From contig NZ_CP157428.1 in NCBI RefSeq assembly GCF_041021895.1, forward strand, positions 1,302,001 to 1,366,000: a stretch of DNA of 64,000 nt, in the 5' to 3' direction. Numbering within the stretch: position 1 is the first letter of the stretch; every line of letters begins with the position of its first letter. Made by a program: the position numbers and the translations under genes. The stretch comes from Acinetobacter sp. XH1741. Its GTDB lineage: Bacteria; Pseudomonadota; Gammaproteobacteria; Pseudomonadales; Moraxellaceae. The notes below the pieces were generated by a model. It did not search any database. It was not told the origin of the DNA and saw only the letters and a program-made list of their open reading frames with translations. Positions 34,998 to 43,202 of this stretch are shown here, one piece after another.

Positions 34998-35237
34998 TGA
35001 AAAATAAAGAAAGTGGCGTTCATCGGAATATTCATAAATGAACGTTTTCTTTTGTAAAAAATGATATAAAATGATCAATAATTGATTTGTTTCTTTGAGA
35101 TGTATCACACAAATGAAAAGAAACGAATCATAAATATCGGCATCTTCTTTAATCTATTTGATTTAAGAATACACTAAAGAAAGAAAAGCCAAATAAAAAG
35201 AAATTAGATTATGCCCCCAAGGATACGGAGGTCGGTC
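34998..35237. other. Leader region of the five-gene secreted-protein cluster
   Basis: About 240 bases of AT-rich DNA separate the dcd terminator from the first gene of the cluster. It should hold the cluster promoter. I see a near-perfect ribosome binding site (GGAGGT at 35227-35232) but no promoter boxes that I would defend. Confidence 0.4.
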
Positions 35238-36545
35238 ATGCGACATTTTAAGTCTCTTCATACAGCTATTCTAGCACTTGGAAGTCTATGCTTTTCTTCA
35301 GCATATGCTGGTTCTACCTTAGTCCCAATGTCTGATGCTGAGTTATCAGCTACTCGTGGCCAAGCCTTGATGAGTATGTCTTATATCGCACCTACCGATG
35401 CTGCAAGTAACTCCAGCACTAACGGGAATATGGGGTTCTATCGACTTGCCCTAGATGCTCAACTAGAAATTAATGCCAATATTAAAAAATTACAGTTAGG
35501 TTGTGGTGGTGTCAACGGAGCCGGGGCTTGTGATATTGATATCGATTATTTGAGTCTAAGTGGCGGTACTGTGGATAGTACCAGTGCGGAACGAGCTGCA
35601 TCTTCAGCTGTTATTACCAACCCATTTTTAGAGTTTGCAGTTAAAAACCCAAATTCAGCCTCTACACGTGAAATACAAGGGTTCCGATTAAGTGCAAAGT
35701 CGCTTTCTGGCTTACTTACTTTTGGTTTACAAAATGGTGATGCTGCAAGTGGTATTAACTCTTTGAGTGGATACTTAGTGACTAAACCGACAGGGGGCAC
35801 GGTAACTACGAATCCTTACTACGGTATTGCCCAAGATGAAACAAATACAGCAATTACTGGGCGAGCAACTGTTATTGGACAAGGCGCGACAGTTCCATTT
35901 ACCTCTACTGCTTATAATTTAAATTTAGGTGTAGGTACGGGGACGTTGTCCATGGGCCAGCAAATTATTACGGGTAAACGTATAAATACCGCCAATTTAA
36001 ATGCGACTGCAAAAGTCGGGGGACTTGCTATTACTGGCACGTTAAATGCCACAGCTTCTGTACTAGGAATCCCTATCCCAATTTCGGGTAATGTAACAGG
36101 CTCTGTAGATAATCTGGATGTTAACGTAGCAATCAAACAAAGTTTAGGTTATTTCCATGCTGCGCAATTAAATGGCTCCGCTGGTTATTTATCTGTACAG
36201 GGTGTGAATATTCTATGGCCAGAGGCTGCCTCTACAGCACAAACAGGATGGTGGTTAGAGCTTACAAATCCGATTGATATTGGTCAAATTACCCCAACAG
36301 GTAGCGTTGATATTGCACTTTCTACTATCGTTGATGCTTTAGGGCAAGTTAGTGCTTATTTGAATAGTCCAGGTCATGCAGTAGATTGTGGAGCTTTGGC
36401 AACTAACTGCTTAATTGCAGGAAATCTTCCTGTAGGAACAGTGGACTTGACTGGTAAAACCCCAGCTTCCATGGCTTTGACTAATGTAGTGCTACAAAAA
36501 CAAAATTTCTCAGCTAACTGTTATGGTTCTTTAAAATTCTGTTGA
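35238..36545 (+). CDS. Secreted cluster protein 1, 435 aa, GQ-motif family
   Basis: I know no function for this protein. A signal peptide is followed by probable cleavage after A24 (SSAYA), then the element M31-S-D-A-E-L-S-A-T-R-G-Q42 shared with the four downstream proteins. The body is rich in G, S, T, N and A with many short alternating beta-type stretches and few charges. It has a close cysteine pair (LGCGGVNGAGACDIDID) and ends with C428-Y-G-S-L-K-F-C435. ATG 35238 was chosen because GGAGGT stands 6 bases ahead; the open frame begins earlier. A cell-surface or extracellular structural role is inferred. From memory the N-terminal element recalls Acinetobacter proteins annotated FilA-like or DUF6160, unverified. 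Confidence 0.8.
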   Translation: MRHFKSLHTAILALGSLCFSSAYAGSTLVPMSDAELSATRGQALMSMSYIAPTDAASNSSTNGNMGFYRLALDAQLEINANIKKLQLGCGGVNGAGACDIDIDYLSLSGGTVDSTSAERAASSAVITNPFLEFAVKNPNSASTREIQGFRLSAKSLSGLLTFGLQNGDAASGINSLSGYLVTKPTGGTVTTNPYYGIAQDETNTAITGRATVIGQGATVPFTSTAYNLNLGVGTGTLSMGQQIITGKRINTANLNATAKVGGLAITGTLNATASVLGIPIPISGNVTGSVDNLDVNVAIKQSLGYFHAAQLNGSAGYLSVQGVNILWPEAASTAQTGWWLELTNPIDIGQITPTGSVDIALSTIVDALGQVSAYLNSPGHAVDCGALATNCLIAGNLPVGTVDLTGKTPASMALTNVVLQKQNFSANCYGSLKFC

Positions 36546-36676
36546 TTGAGTTAAGTGTTTTTACAATTTTTTCATTCATCGGAAAAATGCATTTTTGCTG
36601 ATTTAATTTTGCATTTGAGTAAATATTCAGCATAATGGAAATGTGGAAAGGTTGGCAATTTTAAAAGTTTGCCCCT

Positions 36677-36710
36677 TGTGAGATGGAAAAGGAAATCATT
36701 TTATCTCACA
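36677..36710 (+). other. Hairpin between cluster genes 1 and 2
   Basis: TGTGAGAT pairs with ATCTCACA across 18 bases. It lies in the 227-base gap between the first and second cluster gene, 62 bases before the start of gene 2. Without a T tract it is more likely an mRNA leader or stabilising structure, or an operator, than a terminator. Confidence 0.4.
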
Positions 36711-36772
36711 TCAAGGACTGTTAAAGAAAAAGAAATATGGTGCACAGCATCGTATAAAACAGGAAGGTCACG

Positions 36773-38905
36773 ATGACTACACTTAATTATACGGTCAGTT
36801 TTCAAAAAACCGTTTTAGCAAGCTTAATTGGCCTTTGTTTAAGTCAATCGTGCTTTGCTCTTGAAGAACTTTCTGATGCCGGTTTAAGTGAAATGACGGG
36901 CGAAGGTATTGCAATATTACCCCAAAATGCATTTATGGTATTTCGTGGTGCTGGCCCCAATGAATCTGTAAATCAAATTATTACCGATCGTAGTAAAGAT
37001 ACTGGTTATATTAACTATGTCCCTGTGGGTCCTTTAAGTGTTGCCGCTGCTGATACCAGTGGGAATGGCACTGTAGGGCCTGAAGATAAAGCAGTAGGTA
37101 AGGCTGATATTTTTCTTTATGGCTTAGCACTTTCTAAATCAGACGGTGATGCAAACTCACGTCTAGCCAATACAGCAACAGCAGCAGCCATTTCAAGCTG
37201 GGGAACAGGTGCAAACCCTTGGGTATTTAAAGTAAAAACTGCGAACAATGTTCCTAACTTTAGTACCACAGATAGTGGTGTTTATCCTGTTACATATCTA
37301 TCTTTAGAAGCGCCTTTATATCAACCCACAATTGATGGTGCAGCGGGAGCAGACGCATATAATTTAAAGTTAGGATTTTGGGCTGATGCATTTGTAAGAA
37401 ATCCTAATATTGTGGCAACTGCAGATGGTTCTTTAGCACAATTCCAATATGGCGATAGTAATGGATTAATTGGCACCAGTATCGATACAAGTCGTGCCAA
37501 TCGGTTGCGTTTACAAGGCGTTCTTAATGGCTTTAGTTTAAATGGCAGCCAGATTAGTATGTTCCAAACGCTAGGCGGCGCAACTACTGCGGGTGGAATG
37601 AGTCCTTTTTATAATAATACTTTAGGCATGTCTGGCTTAGTCCGCTTAAATACCGGTGATAGTAAAAATACAAGTATTGTGAACGAGAATGTTACTAGCC
37701 AAACTCAAACCTATGCAACGAGCGCCAATAATGGTTGGCAAACAGTACATGCGGGTGCAAATTCAACTTTAAGTACGAGTAGCAGTGGAGATTGTGGTAA
37801 TAGTGGTACAGGAAGCTTTAGTACATCACGTGGCTGTCGCTACTATGTAGAAAACCGTACCAGAACAGATACAAAAACATCAAGTAAGACACGAAGTGAT
37901 TTTAATGATACTAGTAAAGTCTTAAGATTTAGTACTCGTGAAACTTCAGATTCACCAAATGCATCAAATAATTTATATACACCAGCATTAGACGCAACTG
38001 GTGCTATCGCACCGAAGTTTGCCGATAGTGAAGGTTTATATTTATACAATCCAAATATTAACCTAGTATTAGGTAATTTATATCAACCACTTATTTTAGG
38101 ATCTGATGGTAAAAATTTTAGTATAGAAATTGCGCGAATTGCAAATAAGCCAGAAATATATAAGCAGATTTATACGGATTACACCGGAGCGGACGCCACC
38201 TATAAAGGTTCAACTTGTAATGTTTATTCGTGTGCTAACCCAACACACAGTAGTATTGCAATCGGGACGGTTTACAGCCCTGATAATGGAAAAACCTTGC
38301 TAGCAGACACAAGTGAAGGCGCAATAGGCGTTTCATTTGGCCGTTTAATTTCAGCAGGTACACAAGTTTCCGGAACCTCTGCTGGTAGTCTAGTGTCATT
38401 GACTAACTCTGTGTCTGGAACAACATCTGCCACCATGACTGAAGTCCGCTACAAACAAAGACAACAAAATACTCAAGTATGGAATCAAACCTATAGTTGT
38501 GGTCTGTTTAATACAAATTGTGGTTATAGTGCTGTTGGGTATTTATATCAATGGGAATACAACCAAGGTACAGGTACTTGGGCCATAACAAATCCAACAG
38601 CAAAACCAGCCGATGCTGCGAAGTGTTCTGGTGCATTAGGTTGTACGAGTACTTCCGGTTCAACTCCAATGTATGGAACTACTTCAAACCGTGACTGGAG
38701 TAACGCTTCTATTCCATGGCTGACTTCACGAAATGCAGTCGTCAACGATTTAATTGGTAGTAGTAACGGCACCACAGGTTATGTTATTCCAACTGCTAAT
38801 CAGGCTCCAGCATTAACGAATATCAGTCCACTAAACAATTTAGGTTCTGCTGTGGTGGATGGTTTGCTTATCCAGCATTTAAAACTAACAACGAAAGGTC
38901 TATAA
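36773..38905 (+). CDS. Secreted cluster protein 2, 710 aa, GQ-motif family
   Basis: Unrecognised. The signal peptide ends at about A29 (QSCFA), and L33-S-D-A-G-L-S-E-M-T-G-E44 follows. Residues 94-105 (DTSGNGTVGPED) fit an EF-hand-type calcium loop (D-x-S-x-N-G-x-V-x-x-x-D). The middle part (about 300-400) is very rich in S, T and N with several R/K/T repeats, and there are three cysteine pairs (GDC...RGC, CNVYSC, CGLFNTNC). It ends in LKLTTKGL. AAGGT-type ribosome binding site at 36761-36767. It is probably an exported beta-rich protein. Only 15 bases separate it from gene 3, so genes 2-4 look like one operon. Confidence 0.8.
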   Translation: MTTLNYTVSFQKTVLASLIGLCLSQSCFALEELSDAGLSEMTGEGIAILPQNAFMVFRGAGPNESVNQIITDRSKDTGYINYVPVGPLSVAAADTSGNGTVGPEDKAVGKADIFLYGLALSKSDGDANSRLANTATAAAISSWGTGANPWVFKVKTANNVPNFSTTDSGVYPVTYLSLEAPLYQPTIDGAAGADAYNLKLGFWADAFVRNPNIVATADGSLAQFQYGDSNGLIGTSIDTSRANRLRLQGVLNGFSLNGSQISMFQTLGGATTAGGMSPFYNNTLGMSGLVRLNTGDSKNTSIVNENVTSQTQTYATSANNGWQTVHAGANSTLSTSSSGDCGNSGTGSFSTSRGCRYYVENRTRTDTKTSSKTRSDFNDTSKVLRFSTRETSDSPNASNNLYTPALDATGAIAPKFADSEGLYLYNPNINLVLGNLYQPLILGSDGKNFSIEIARIANKPEIYKQIYTDYTGADATYKGSTCNVYSCANPTHSSIAIGTVYSPDNGKTLLADTSEGAIGVSFGRLISAGTQVSGTSAGSLVSLTNSVSGTTSATMTEVRYKQRQQNTQVWNQTYSCGLFNTNCGYSAVGYLYQWEYNQGTGTWAITNPTAKPADAAKCSGALGCTSTSGSTPMYGTTSNRDWSNASIPWLTSRNAVVNDLIGSSNGTTGYVIPTANQAPALTNISPLNNLGSAVVDGLLIQHLKLTTKGL

Positions 38906-38920
38906 GAGGAGGATAATGCA

Positions 38921-39649
38921 ATGAAAAAAATAACTGCTTTACTCCTTACCCTGTGTGTTGCAACTGCGACTCATGCGGAGCTACAAACCTTAGATAATGA
39001 TGCACTACAGGCGATTAATGGCCAAGCAGGTGCCGATTTATCACTCGTGCTTAATTTAAACCAAACCAATAACAGCATATTTGATAATGGCAGTGGCGGT
39101 GTTTGTGAAAATGTAGAGTTCTGCCATATTGGTTTAGCTATTAACAAGCGTTTTGTGCAAGCAGATGCGACGAAACCAAGTGGTTGGGCAGAAAATAGTG
39201 ATAGTGGTAATAAGCTTTGGTTGGTGTTTAAAGGCGTACAAGGAACTTTAAACATTCAAAAAATGGGTTTGGATGGTGCTGATTTAAAGTATCTTGATAA
39301 AACCAATACAGAAATTATTAAGCCCGCAATTCAACTGAGTTTTAGTGCTGCACAGCCAATTTTAATACGTAACTTTGGTTTTAATGCTTTATCGATTGAG
39401 CAAGATAACTTTAGCAGCTCAACAACGGCACAAGGCTCAAGTGCCAATATGTATGATTATGCATATTTTAAAAAGCCAACCTACGCAGCGACTGCAAACA
39501 GTGCAACTCAACAAGTTGCAACGGCAACACCTTCTGCTTATGACTATGGGCGTGAAACAGGTTTTATGGGCCTCATGATGAATGGGAATTTGGCAATTCA
39601 AGGAAAAGTCATGGTGTTTAGCTGTGATGGTAGCCATCCCCGTTGTTAA
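38921..39649 (+). CDS. Secreted cluster protein 3, 242 aa, GQ-motif family
   Basis: The shortest member. A signal peptide (MKKITALLLTLCVATATHA, cleavage after A19) is followed by L24-D-N-D-A-L-Q-A-I-N-G-Q35 and then ADLSLVLNLNQ. It has a cysteine pair (GVCENVEFCHIG) and ends with C235-D-G-S-H-P-R-C242, the same terminal pattern as cluster protein 1. GAGGAGGAT at 38907-38915 is a strong ribosome binding site. The end of the gene is 32 bases from the start of gene 4. Function unknown; small fibre or minor subunit is a guess from size. Confidence 0.8.
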   Translation: MKKITALLLTLCVATATHAELQTLDNDALQAINGQAGADLSLVLNLNQTNNSIFDNGSGGVCENVEFCHIGLAINKRFVQADATKPSGWAENSDSGNKLWLVFKGVQGTLNIQKMGLDGADLKYLDKTNTEIIKPAIQLSFSAAQPILIRNFGFNALSIEQDNFSSSTTAQGSSANMYDYAYFKKPTYAATANSATQQVATATPSAYDYGRETGFMGLMMNGNLAIQGKVMVFSCDGSHPRC

Positions 39650-39681
39650 TGGTTAATGTAGATTTCAAAGGAACTGAAGTG

Positions 39682-42093
39682 ATGAACAAAAATAAAGAAA
39701 GTCACGGCTCAAAGTTTATTTTAAATACATTAGCAGCCAGCATGTTGTTAGTGAGTGGACAAGTTTTTGCTTTAGAAGCTTTAACGGATGCCGATTTGAG
39801 CGCAGTCAATGGTCAAGATGGAATCTCGATTCAAACTACGTTTAATGAAATTAATATTGATAATGCTTACTGGGACGACCATGCAGGCACGCCAACAAGT
39901 GCTGATCAGGTTTTAAGAGCTCAAGCGAGCGGTGTAAAAATACAAAAAAGTAATGCTTCTACACAAGCTTTAGGAACGAACTATCGTTTAGATGTGGGAA
40001 GTAATACAACTACAGGTAAAGCTGGCATTGATTTTTCTATGCAAAGCAGTCCCTCCCTTATAACTGTAAATAGCGTTAAAGTGTGTAATAGCTCTGCTAC
40101 CTGTTCACCAACAATGGGGCAGATGGCGATACAAACAACTTCTCCTTTAAATTTAGCATTGACTACTCAAGATGGTTTATTTAGCCCCAATAGTCAGTCC
40201 AATATGACGCTGGGTATAAATAACGCAAATATTTATTTGGGGCAATTAGACGCACGTAGTCAGCTAAACCAACTGATATTAAAGAACTTTAATTTTAATT
40301 TTGTGGGTAAAGGGGTCATGTTTATTGATCCTATTCGTGGCGTAGTTTTACAAACGAATACCGGAACAAATGTGGCTGCTGTTGGACAAACCCCAAATAG
40401 TACTTATGGCTATGTCGATTTTAATCGCGTTGCTGATTCAGCTTCCGGATTAACAGCAGGTACTTATGTTGATAGTAATGGCAAAGTGACTAATTCGGGT
40501 TTGAACATTGAAGTAATGCTCAGCTCCAATGTTGATAAAACTAATCCCTATGGATTGGATGCGACCAATACACCGCAAAATTCAAAAGGTTTAATTCGAT
40601 TGGGCGCAAGCGGACGTATGGTAAATAGTTATTTACAAGTCCGTGGTATGGATGGTTCTTCAGATACAACCACTCTAGGTACTGCGAATACGGCTTCGGG
40701 TACGACTTCAAGTAATAGTATTTTAGGTAATACGGGAATTGCCTTCCGTATGAAAGGTGAATTCACCAAAGATAATGATTCAATGCTGGGTTCAGATGGT
40801 AAAGCCACGACTTTAGAAATTGGTGGGGCAGGTTTAAATGCCTACGGTTTCGAGTTTGGTAATTTAACTGGACTGAATTCAGCTACACGTGGTTACTTTG
40901 ATAGCGGAAATATTTATTTAAATCTTGCCGATACAAAAACCTTATTAATGCCAAATAACGCAACCTTAAATAGTATTCGTTTAGGTTCTGGTACTTTAAC
41001 AACCGCTGCCGATTATCAACATAATATTCATCGTGATACGGTGACTAATCCATTTAGTTTAATTCTTGCGATGCGTGGAGCCGAGTTTCAGGCATTTTCA
41101 AGACGTGGCCGTTTTACCACAAGTGCGAATGTCGCTGCTGCCAATCAATTTGCAGACAATGGCTTAAGTAACCAATGGGGCTTGGCGTTACCTTTTTATA
41201 ATTTAAATGCCAATGCTGCTGTTTATGGTGTAGATGCACCTGCAAATAGTGCTTATTACTATACAAAAGATGCTAATGGTAAACCGATTCAAAATGCTGT
41301 GGGTACTTCGGGAACAACTTCGCGTTTAGGTTTTGGTGTCGCTGTTGGAACAACAGGACGCGATGCAGGTGGAACTAAAACGACTTCAATTTTATTAATT
41401 GATGGTTCTCCAAACGCCAATAATGCGGGTAATCCTACCGACTATTACATGGGTTTACGTAATATTGATATGTTCCTAAAAGGTAATGGCACTATCGGTT
41501 TGGAAAATGGCAGTCTCAATATTAGTTTAAGAGAAATGCTACTTGCTTTATCTACCGAAATTGCAGCGGGTTATTTACCGGGAGCTAAATATAAAACTTG
41601 TCCAGCAACAGGATCTTGTACTTCACCGATCGATAACTTTGCCAGAAATAATGATGTCTTATTTGGCTTAAAACTACGCTTAGGCGGCGATTTAAATTTA
41701 TCGATTGTGCCAAATAGTTCGATTGCCGATGGTAGTGCTTTAACTGTTTTAGGTGATTTTACAATGCCTGCTACAGCAACTGGAAACTCAGTTCAGATTA
41801 GTGACCCAATTGATGGCTCTGCAATTGGTTTTGAGAATATGACTGGTAAGCTTGCGTTTAACACGGCGTTAGTTGTTGGAAAAGACAGCGCGAGTGGTTT
41901 GGGTAAGGTGGGTGTAAATACCGCAGTGTATTTTAATCCCGATAAAAATATTGATGGTGCTTTACGCGTTAAAGATATTAACTTCTATCCACCTTCAACA
42001 GGGGCAGGCGCACGTTTAGGTGAACTTGCAATTACTGGTGGACGTTTAAATAGTAGCTTTAGCATTGTGCCGAGAAATGGTGCTTTTAACTAA
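39682..42093 (+). CDS. Secreted cluster protein 4, 803 aa, GQ-motif family
   Basis: The largest member. After a long, basic signal peptide (cleavage about A30, GQVFA) comes L34-T-D-A-D-L-S-A-V-N-G-Q45 and then DGISIQTTFNEINIDN, a clear start of beta strands. The rest is G/N/S/T-rich, low in charge and full of repeated short strands, compatible with a beta-solenoid or large beta barrel, which I cannot distinguish by eye. Cysteine pairs occur in VCNSSATCSP and TCPATGSC. I used ATG 39682 with AAAGGAA upstream and rejected the in-frame ATG at 39643. A strong terminator follows directly. Confidence 0.8.
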   Translation: MNKNKESHGSKFILNTLAASMLLVSGQVFALEALTDADLSAVNGQDGISIQTTFNEINIDNAYWDDHAGTPTSADQVLRAQASGVKIQKSNASTQALGTNYRLDVGSNTTTGKAGIDFSMQSSPSLITVNSVKVCNSSATCSPTMGQMAIQTTSPLNLALTTQDGLFSPNSQSNMTLGINNANIYLGQLDARSQLNQLILKNFNFNFVGKGVMFIDPIRGVVLQTNTGTNVAAVGQTPNSTYGYVDFNRVADSASGLTAGTYVDSNGKVTNSGLNIEVMLSSNVDKTNPYGLDATNTPQNSKGLIRLGASGRMVNSYLQVRGMDGSSDTTTLGTANTASGTTSSNSILGNTGIAFRMKGEFTKDNDSMLGSDGKATTLEIGGAGLNAYGFEFGNLTGLNSATRGYFDSGNIYLNLADTKTLLMPNNATLNSIRLGSGTLTTAADYQHNIHRDTVTNPFSLILAMRGAEFQAFSRRGRFTTSANVAAANQFADNGLSNQWGLALPFYNLNANAAVYGVDAPANSAYYYTKDANGKPIQNAVGTSGTTSRLGFGVAVGTTGRDAGGTKTTSILLIDGSPNANNAGNPTDYYMGLRNIDMFLKGNGTIGLENGSLNISLREMLLALSTEIAAGYLPGAKYKTCPATGSCTSPIDNFARNNDVLFGLKLRLGGDLNLSIVPNSSIADGSALTVLGDFTMPATATGNSVQISDPIDGSAIGFENMTGKLAFNTALVVGKDSASGLGKVGVNTAVYFNPDKNIDGALRVKDINFYPPSTGAGARLGELAITGGRLNSSFSIVPRNGAFN

Positions 42094-42118
42094 TAAAGTG
42101 GTGATCTCACCACTTTAT
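42093..42118 (+). terminator. Terminator after cluster gene 4
   Basis: ATAAAGTGGTGA pairs with TCACCACTTTAT (12 bp, minimal loop) and is followed by ATAAAAAAATT. It starts at the stop codon of gene 4 and separates it from gene 5. The missing T tract makes it imperfect. Confidence 0.65.
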
Positions 42119-42248
42119 ATAAAAAAATTATTTTAAATGTGATTGGATTTGCATTCGTCGGGTTATAGGGATAATTGTTTTGTAGTTGCATTTTATTCTG
42201 ATAGTCTGAACAAATAATAAGCGTTTGTCTCTTAAGGATTAGAGCGAC

Positions 42249-43202
42249 ATGAAAAATAAAAATATAGGGTGCTGGCTATTACTTGCCACTAGTTCAAGTG
42301 TTTTTGCGATGCAGCCTTTGGATGATCAAAGTCTTTCAGCAACGACGGGTCAAAATGGTTTAACGCTAGGTATTCAGGCCGATAAAGTTAAATTTAATCA
42401 AGTCGCACTCATCGATACTAACGGTATTGCCTCTACCGCTTACAATAGTAAAGCTGGTCTTGTTATTGCTGGAAATGCGGCCAATCCGGTTCCCGGTATT
42501 GAGTTTATTAAAGCAGCTGCCTCAACTAATCCTTCTTTTAATATTGCTATAGATACCGATGCAGGCGCGGGTAAACCTTTCGTAAATTTAGCTATCACCA
42601 TGGGAAGTGATGTAAACGGTATTCAACTTTTACCATTTTCAGTTTATTTAGCACCTAATACTTCGCTTTCTAGCCCCTCTGATTATGCAGTGACCAGTTA
42701 TGCCCCAAAATCAATTTTTAGTTCGGGAACCACGGTAAATACAGGAGTGAAAGAACTTATTCGCTCTACTGGAAATTTGGATATTAACTTTGTACAGACC
42801 AATAAACCTCGTTTAAACATTCAATTGGGGCATGCTGCTCAGTCTGTGATGGTCAAATTTGGTGGAGCAATTCAATCGATTTGTTCTGCTGCATCTGGTT
42901 GCCCAATTACTCTGGTGTCCGATTATACAGGTGCTTCATTTGGGTTTAAATTTGCAGGGACAAATCCATCTACAGGTTTTGTTCTTGATGGTTTCTATGC
43001 AGGAGTTGATCCGACTGGACTTACTTTTGGCAATACGGGGGCATCTAGTAAATTTGATGCATCGCTTAACAATGTAACTTTAGGAAATGCAGGCCTACAA
43101 AGTCCAACAACGTTTAATAATTTACCTAATGGGTCTATGGGGAGTTTTGGAGTTACGGGTGCTTCGGTAACCGACTTTAAAATGAAAGTAAGCGGGTTTT
43201 AG
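42249..43202 (+). CDS. Secreted cluster protein 5, 317 aa, GQ-motif family
   Basis: Signal peptide with cleavage after A20 (SSSVFA), then L24-D-D-Q-S-L-S-A-T-T-G-Q35 and NGLTLGIQADKVKFNQV, closely parallel to protein 4. The body is again low in charge and rich in G/S/T/N, with one cysteine pair (ICSAASGCP). It ends in FKMKVSGF; an aromatic last residue is a feature of many outer-membrane beta-barrel proteins, although the fold here is unknown. AAGGA at 42234-42238 is the ribosome binding site. It has its own 155-base upstream gap and may be separately transcribed. Confidence 0.8.
   Translation: MKNKNIGCWLLLATSSSVFAMQPLDDQSLSATTGQNGLTLGIQADKVKFNQVALIDTNGIASTAYNSKAGLVIAGNAANPVPGIEFIKAAASTNPSFNIAIDTDAGAGKPFVNLAITMGSDVNGIQLLPFSVYLAPNTSLSSPSDYAVTSYAPKSIFSSGTTVNTGVKELIRSTGNLDINFVQTNKPRLNIQLGHAAQSVMVKFGGAIQSICSAASGCPITLVSDYTGASFGFKFAGTNPSTGFVLDGFYAGVDPTGLTFGNTGASSKFDASLNNVTLGNAGLQSPTTFNNLPNGSMGSFGVTGASVTDFKMKVSGF

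Follow-up and report, generated by a model that had tools for sequence, protein, structure and literature searches.

A 12-residue element behind the signal peptides of five clustered Acinetobacter proteins resembles C39 peptidase leaders and may address them to the Fil system

Several described systems lie close to the locus considered here. In the Fap system of Pseudomonas the catalytic cysteine of the peptidase FapD is reported to be required for FapC secretion, the C38A exchange abolishing it, and FapE is reported to be N-terminally processed (both in the excerpted text of PMC5557850). The leaders read by the C39 domains of peptidase-containing ATP-binding cassette transporters (PCATs) follow the consensus L(-12)xxxE(-8)L(-7)xxxxG(-2)G(-1), in which positions -10 to -4 form a helix, -12 and -7 a hydrophobic knot, and -4 is the specificity position (excerpt of PMC6959990). 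Acinetobacter carries the fil operon, described as a 'putative pilus system' (FilA–FilF), and Fil proteins are reported to be increased in biofilms or pellicles of A. baumannii, FilC and FilF in the excerpt of one report and FilF in those of two others. Here we describe a cluster of five genes in a 64,000-nucleotide stretch of Acinetobacter sp. XH1741 (contig NZ_CP157428.1, positions 1,302,001 to 1,366,000; hereafter the window), each encoding an exported protein with the same 12-residue element just behind its signal peptide. We consider it probable that a periplasmic C39 peptidase reads this element as a leader, and that the five proteins are clients, encoded in trans, of the Fap-like Fil system of the same genome.

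The cluster spans positions 35238–43202 of the window (G000:C1:1337238-1345202), with all five genes on the + strand. A sequence-only reading of this DNA had described five rightward genes of 242–803 aa, each with a signal and a 12-residue element beginning at mature residue 4–7, and the coordinates, translations and a pattern check bear this out; signals were judged by eye with a hydrophobicity script and the signal-peptidase sites were placed by hand. The features are as follows.

35238..36545, + strand: gene 1, 435 aa (counted from an inner ATG, the open frame itself beginning at 35211), with Sec-type signal, element MSDAELSATRGQ and 3 cysteine pairs (6 Cys), the last pair at the protein end
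35328..35363, + strand: element of gene 1, 12 residues, ending GQ
36773..38905, + strand: gene 2, 710 aa, with Sec-type signal, element LSDAGLSEMTGE and 4 cysteine pairs (8 Cys)
36869..36904, + strand: element of gene 2, 12 residues, ending GE
38921..39649, + strand: gene 3, 242 aa, DUF6160 protein with element LDNDALQAINGQ and 2 cysteine pairs (4 Cys), the last pair at the protein end
38990..39025, + strand: element of gene 3, 12 residues, ending GQ
39682..42093, + strand: gene 4, 803 aa, DUF6160 protein with a FilA-like head, element LTDADLSAVNGQ and 2 cysteine pairs (4 Cys)
39781..39816, + strand: element of gene 4, 12 residues, ending GQ
42249..43202, + strand: gene 5, 317 aa, FilA relative with element LDDQSLSATTGQ and 1 cysteine pair (2 Cys)
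42318..42353, + strand: element of gene 5, 12 residues, ending GQ

All five proteins hold the element as hydrophobic-x-D/N-x-x-L-x4-G-Q/E, its first residue lying 3–6 residues past the predicted signal-peptidase site. The chance of meeting this pattern at any of four starts is 0.7–1.5e-4 per protein from its own composition (1–1.5e-4 in shuffles), and the product for five proteins, about 1e-20, overstates the surprise because the pattern had been derived from these same proteins. Set against the C39 leader, the element has the same length and the same register. All five window proteins carry the leucines of -12 and -7 and the glycine of -2, gene 1 with M at -12, and position -4 is hydrophobic or T, as in PCAT leaders; the departures are at -1, which is Q or E, and often at -8, where the consensus has E and genes 1–5 have E, G, A, D and S. 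Unlike PCAT leaders, the element comes after a Sec signal, and its place of action would be the periplasm; it ends in GQ, GE, GR or GG and heads proteins of 97–803 aa. In searches of one open-access library, no report describing the element as a leader of the C39 type was found.

A wider collection was made by requiring a hydrophobic residue at -12, L/M/F at -7 and G at -2, plus two of three loose conditions at -11, -10 and -4. Among 88 elements from 23 Acinetobacter loci (the window, L076, L086 and L121–L140), D stands at -10 in 71 and T/V/I at -4 in 69, and the -1 residue is Q in 62, E in 23 and another in 3, in a set that was itself filtered on -1, on -10 and on length, so that -8 alone is a free position; eight rows were dropped from it, two of them apparently true elements (L126, L133). 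The GE ending of gene 2 recurs in the listed gene-2-type copies of other Acinetobacter loci. In 38 elements from clusters elsewhere in the order, also filtered on -1, that residue is Q in 23, A in 7, E and R in 3 each, and K and S in 1 each, while 29 dispersed elements give Q in 26 and others in 3.

The peptidase that could read such a leader is encoded in the same genome. The genes filA–filF lie at G000:C1:1225777-1233856, about 103 kb upstream of the cluster, and the head of FilA is the same signal plus element (MDDAALSAATGQ). FilB is a C39 peptidase related to FapD with a hydrophobic N-terminus, matching NF050078 (E 3e-165), the FapD model (E 5e-31) and PF03412 (E 4e-16); among PDB sequences the double-glycine protease domain 6mpz (E 1.1e-5) is its sole match at E <= 0.01. 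FilC matches NF050079 (E 1e-201) and the FapF model (E 4e-13) and is related to the amyloid transporter FapF, all FapD and FapF model matches of Fil proteins being below the naming cut-offs of those models; FilD is FadL-like. The genome itself holds what we take as the mark of a Fap-like machinery, a FapD-type C39 peptidase adjacent to a FapF-type barrel (filB–filC), and at each of ten Fil loci chosen from the 24 of the Fil clade described below the peptidase gene is followed by one that is FilC- and FapF-like. The active-site Gln, His and Asp are invariant in 66 of 66 C39 sequences gathered with a regular expression around the Cys; the C39 genes of L174, L195, L197, L198, L200 and L203 were missed by that expression and lie outside the active-site count, the tree and the neighbour survey.

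Element proteins and peptidase also occur in the same genomes. In the genus (119 genomes) gene 4 is present in 100, and FilB in 97 of these against none of the 19 without gene 4 (p 3e-19), two of the FilB-less genomes being inferred from the list of FilB positives; ushers, taken as a control, show a weak association (90 of 100 gene-4 genomes against 11 of 19 others, p 0.0016). DUF6160 gave no match at all in 19 of 22 FilB-less genomes of the genus and was present in 8 of 8 FilB-bearing genomes tested. Across the order (145 genomes) DUF6160 exceeds its cut-off in 20, all 20 of which have a standalone FilB/FapD-type C39 gene, compared with 4 of the remaining 125, three intact (G086, G046, G122) and one broken (G017). 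Standalone here denotes open frames of about 180–330 aa with a match of about 395–417 bp at E <= 1e-12, the broken copy being shorter, a definition chosen after the data had been seen, with matches listed down to about E 7e-7; the count leaves out short frames with ABC-transporter-type C39 matches (G136, G091) and weaker short-frame matches such as those of G035, G065 and G090, and places G050, which has a sub-cut-off DUF6160 match (E 5.6e-5) and no such C39 gene, among the 125. Within genus g21 both are found in G051, G078, G101 and G140 and neither in G121, while G017 has a broken peptidase and no DUF6160; its standalone FapD-type C39 gene (L065, G017:C10:549273-549635) carries an in-frame TGA. 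At the level of the class (281 genomes) DUF6160 occurs in 6 genomes, 5 over the cut-off, and a FapD-type peptidase in all 6 against 33 of 275 others, the peptidase set (39 of 281 genomes, E <= 2.8e-20, frames of 173–380 aa) again having been chosen after the data were seen.

The same element stands in the Fap system itself. FapE is present in 37 of 50 genomes of the genus of G122, which we infer to be Pseudomonas because L063 is a true fap locus, where the models of FapA, FapC and FapE all exceed their cut-offs, and in 30 of 30 loci read it carries [LIVM]xDxE[LM]xxLRGR about 5–7 residues past the likely signal cut, with E at -8 in all 30 and Y/F-V after the LRGR end. The FapA of L063 has an element-like stretch with S at -2, LSDGDFASVASG, as does a relative at L044, LSDSDFAGVTSG, FapA being reported as unprocessed. 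The likeness to Fap includes the machinery, through the FapD and FapF models that match FilB and FilC, and the element behind the FapE signal. The differences are that the window leaders end in GQ or GE and that of FapE in GR, that the window proteins are encoded away from the machinery, that none of the five matches the FapB or FapC models (searched to E 1), and that fil has the extra genes filD–filF.

At the level of the class, the strict pattern is found behind a signal at 22 of 40 C39 loci against 2 of 20 control regions, or at 20 without L204 and L206, whose sole matches are not credible; the 35 matches behind these figures include four within C39 genes and some others that cannot credibly be taken for secreted proteins. 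A quick tree of 65 C39 sequences gives three clades (SH-aLRT, the Shimodaira–Hasegawa-like approximate likelihood ratio test, 95, 99 and 98) that largely match three classes of end residue. In the Fap clade an RG[RK]-[YF] gene is directly downstream of 15 of 16 C39 genes; in the next, which we call the Gly clade, an RGG gene is directly downstream of 13 of 19, with two more by eye at L061 and L062; in the Fil clade 12 of 24 loci have a GQ element no more than 1.2 kb away, L209 having a nearer GY gene too and L042 a doubtful GA match. Hand-given labels for the end residue change twice on the tree against a shuffled mean of 18.5, with 39 of 65 rows labelled, the broken L065 dropped, L186 and L191 labelled by their downstream gene (GG) despite a nearer upstream one (GR, GQ), and L061 (GR), L190 (GM), L201 (GP) and L209 (GY) left unlabelled although within the distance rule. 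These labelling choices, too, were made after the data had been seen. Strict nearest-gene labels (43 rows) give 7 changes against a shuffled mean of 21.7, a value as low being reached in 0 of 200 shuffles. Since the clients of the Fil clade are diverse and often unlinked, that clade is the better test of the match between clade and residue; the Glu-ended L196 falls outside it on a long branch.

How far one peptidase might serve scattered proteins is suggested by G369 and G458, in which 19 stretches hold twelve and fourteen element proteins of 97–246 aa spread over many contigs, each genome having a single match to a FapD-type peptidase; DUF6160 matches are likewise scattered in two genomes, 15 and 17 of them, with one FapD-type peptidase each. 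At L037 a 167-aa protein with LSDPELSEYRGG lies beside a FapD-type peptidase, and its match to the FapE model is confined to signal and element (residues 9–60, E 1.2e-4). At that locus (G051:C11) a unit is duplicated in tandem that consists of a long repeat protein rich in S/N/D, a protein with a GR element, a C39 peptidase and a protein with an RGG element. G086 has three FapD-type peptidases, two in adjoining Fap-like units (L060, L061). For ten proteins of FapD loci, Pfam gave nothing meaningful among matches up to E 10. L201, L202 and L204–L206 form a further deep branch of standalone C39 genes (LDYSCGA), with small secreted neighbours bearing LSDQEMKNTEGA (L205) and LSHDEMQKTEGE (L202), which are perhaps a fourth leader dialect.

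Within the cluster, kinship to known families is uneven. DUF6160 (PF19657), a family of unknown function with a cut-off of 27 bits, is exceeded by gene 3 (33.1 bits, E 6.8e-8), gene 4 (35.6 bits, E 1.1e-8) and gene 5 (34.2 bits, E 3.1e-8), unlike gene 1 (10.4 bits, E 0.84) and gene 2, which has no match. The FilA model (NF050077, naming cut-off 220 bits) matches gene 5 over residues 12–316 (107.9 bits, E 6.1e-31) and gene 4 (54.9 bits, E 8.7e-15), both below that cut-off, and gene 2 over residues 10–49 only (13.3 bits, E 0.041), with no match to genes 1 and 3. Judged by these scores, the window proteins are FilA relatives at most, not FilA: they share its signal-plus-element head, yet form a separate cluster, and genes 1 and 2 have almost no FilA match past the head. 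Against PDB sequences gene 1 has two matches, both at E > 0.4 and not meaningful. Behind the element the five bodies otherwise differ, although their mature forms are alike in having 10–16% charged residues, 32–41% G/S/T/N and all 24 cysteines in 12 close pairs spaced 5–14 residues apart. In gene 1 (NCYGSLKFC, 36516–36542) and gene 3 (SCDGSHPRC, 39620–39646) the C-terminal residue is the Cys of the final pair.

Each of 31 other Acinetobacter cluster loci scored by script has the element in 2–5 genes; it is in five genes at each of the ten closest loci and in fewer at most others, partly because of the score threshold of the script and the ends of the stretches. A gene of gene-1 type sits behind gene 4 in several of them (e.g. 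L122, L124). Other families of the order have clustered element genes of similar size (about 400, 500–600, 220 and 850 aa), in the order of genes 1–4 at least in L066, L067, L069, L071 and L072 and in another order elsewhere, e.g. in L074. Gene 4 is 16–22% identical to seven distant counterparts, whose orthology rests on neighbourhood, length and element and not on a profile test; the element is kept, its -2 G being one of 17 invariant columns. Named relatives of gene 4 are 91–98% identical in species that we take to belong to the A. calcoaceticus-baumannii complex, and 58% in Ca. A. avistercoris. A chance grouping of the five genes was rejected on this conserved clustering across Acinetobacter and the order and on the element statistics. 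The cluster lies between ordinary genes, those for DUF2062, LysE-type and Dcd proteins at one end and those for Dus and a cytochrome c assembly protein at the other; the seven flanking genes scanned (30.4–45.1 kb) include none for protein secretion. The idea that the five proteins are chaperone-usher clients was also rejected, no usher or chaperone being found in the five genes or the scanned flanks and the ushers of the genome lying elsewhere. Much of the sequence-only reading agrees with these results, namely the low charge, G/S/T/N-richness and close cysteine pairs, the lack of chaperone, usher or secretion genes in the cluster, the suspected kinship to DUF6160 and FilA, and the expectation that the group stays together.

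From the Sec-type signals, the register match, the kinship and joint presence of FilB and FilC, and the occurrence of the element in FapE and, in its RGG form, beside FapD-type peptidases, we propose the following path. The five proteins would cross the inner membrane via Sec and lose their signal peptides; the element, now near the new N-terminus, would dock on FilB as a short helix held by -12 and -7, and FilB would cut at or beside G-Q or G-E. The trimmed, cysteine-paired, beta-like proteins would then reach the cell surface, most likely through FilC, and could serve there as surface or matrix proteins, possibly in adhesion.

Several observations weigh against this path. The G or A expected at -1 is replaced by Q in four window proteins and E in one, and the double-glycine specificity of PCAT1 is attributed to its C39 cleft, described as very narrow (excerpt of PMC6959990); -8 is D/E/N/Q in just 48 of the 88 Acinetobacter elements. 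In PMC5557850 FapA–FapD are reported to show no processing past the signal peptide. Three Acinetobacter genomes without FilB, G239 (L134), G218 (L135) and G156 (L136), keep cluster genes and element, and a search for FilC, which had no positive control, did not find it in five FilB-less genomes including these; unless fil was lost there recently, the three contradict a strict dependence of the cluster on FilB. The co-occurrence counts and p-values ignore phylogeny, linked inheritance alone could account for much of the clade-by-residue match, the strict rule raises the label changes from two to seven, and genes upstream of Gly-clade peptidases end often in GR, once in GQ, or in GG or GM. AlphaFold2 models, from an input of 12 sequences of which 11 were near-identical, were unusable (mean pLDDT 41.5 for gene 5 and 30.1 for gene 4).

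Some of these points suit other explanations. FilB and/or FilC could bind the element as a signal for docking or export and leave it uncut, the C39 domain serving as a chaperone in the manner of some type I transporters; P1 residues of Q, E, R or K in many loci, and the catalytically inactive C39-like domains known from type I systems (excerpt of PMC5557850), speak for this reading, but the invariant catalytic Gln, His and Asp of the aligned C39 sequences, together with the FapD C38A and FapE results cited above, make it unlikely. Somewhat less likely still is a structural role, in which the element forms an N-terminal piece of the DUF6160 fold and FilB co-occurs with it only through a common surface structure and cuts something else. 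The DUF6160 model does begin at the signal and span the element, and the three species without detectable FilB retain it, whereas the element heads very different bodies (FapE, the dispersed proteins of 97–246 aa, proteins of 800 aa) and lies in register with C39 leaders. The sequence-only reading had proposed a self-contained set of co-assembling fibre subunits with no special processing, to which the lasting clustering and beta-like composition lend something; the element is also found in proteins outside the cluster and tracks a peptidase, and we regard this view as very improbable. What stands of it is an exported family with a common element, as the export signals, element and clustering indicate; the element is not specific to the cluster, it matches a C39 leader, and the likely machinery, FilB and FilC in trans, had been missed.

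Processing by FilB, which we favour over these, may be one case of a mode of export found throughout the Gammaproteobacteria, a generalisation to which we give an even chance. It would combine Sec with a periplasmic C39 peptidase, a portable 12-residue leader on many, often unlinked proteins, one peptidase and one FapF/FilC barrel, in dialects RG[RK], RGG and GQ that largely match the three peptidase clades, and LRGR of FapE would be the missing FapD site. For FapD, needed for amyloid secretion in Pseudomonas, the target was reported as unclear in 2017 (excerpt of PMC5557850) and as undetermined in 2018 (excerpt of PMC6173800), and the protein is still termed a putative cysteine protease in the excerpt of a 2024 paper (PMC11787515). 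The present analysis offers a concrete candidate site for the FapD family and a large set of candidate clients; it gives DUF6160 and FilA a mechanistic reading and would link the poorly understood Fil 'pilus' proteins to amyloid-type export.

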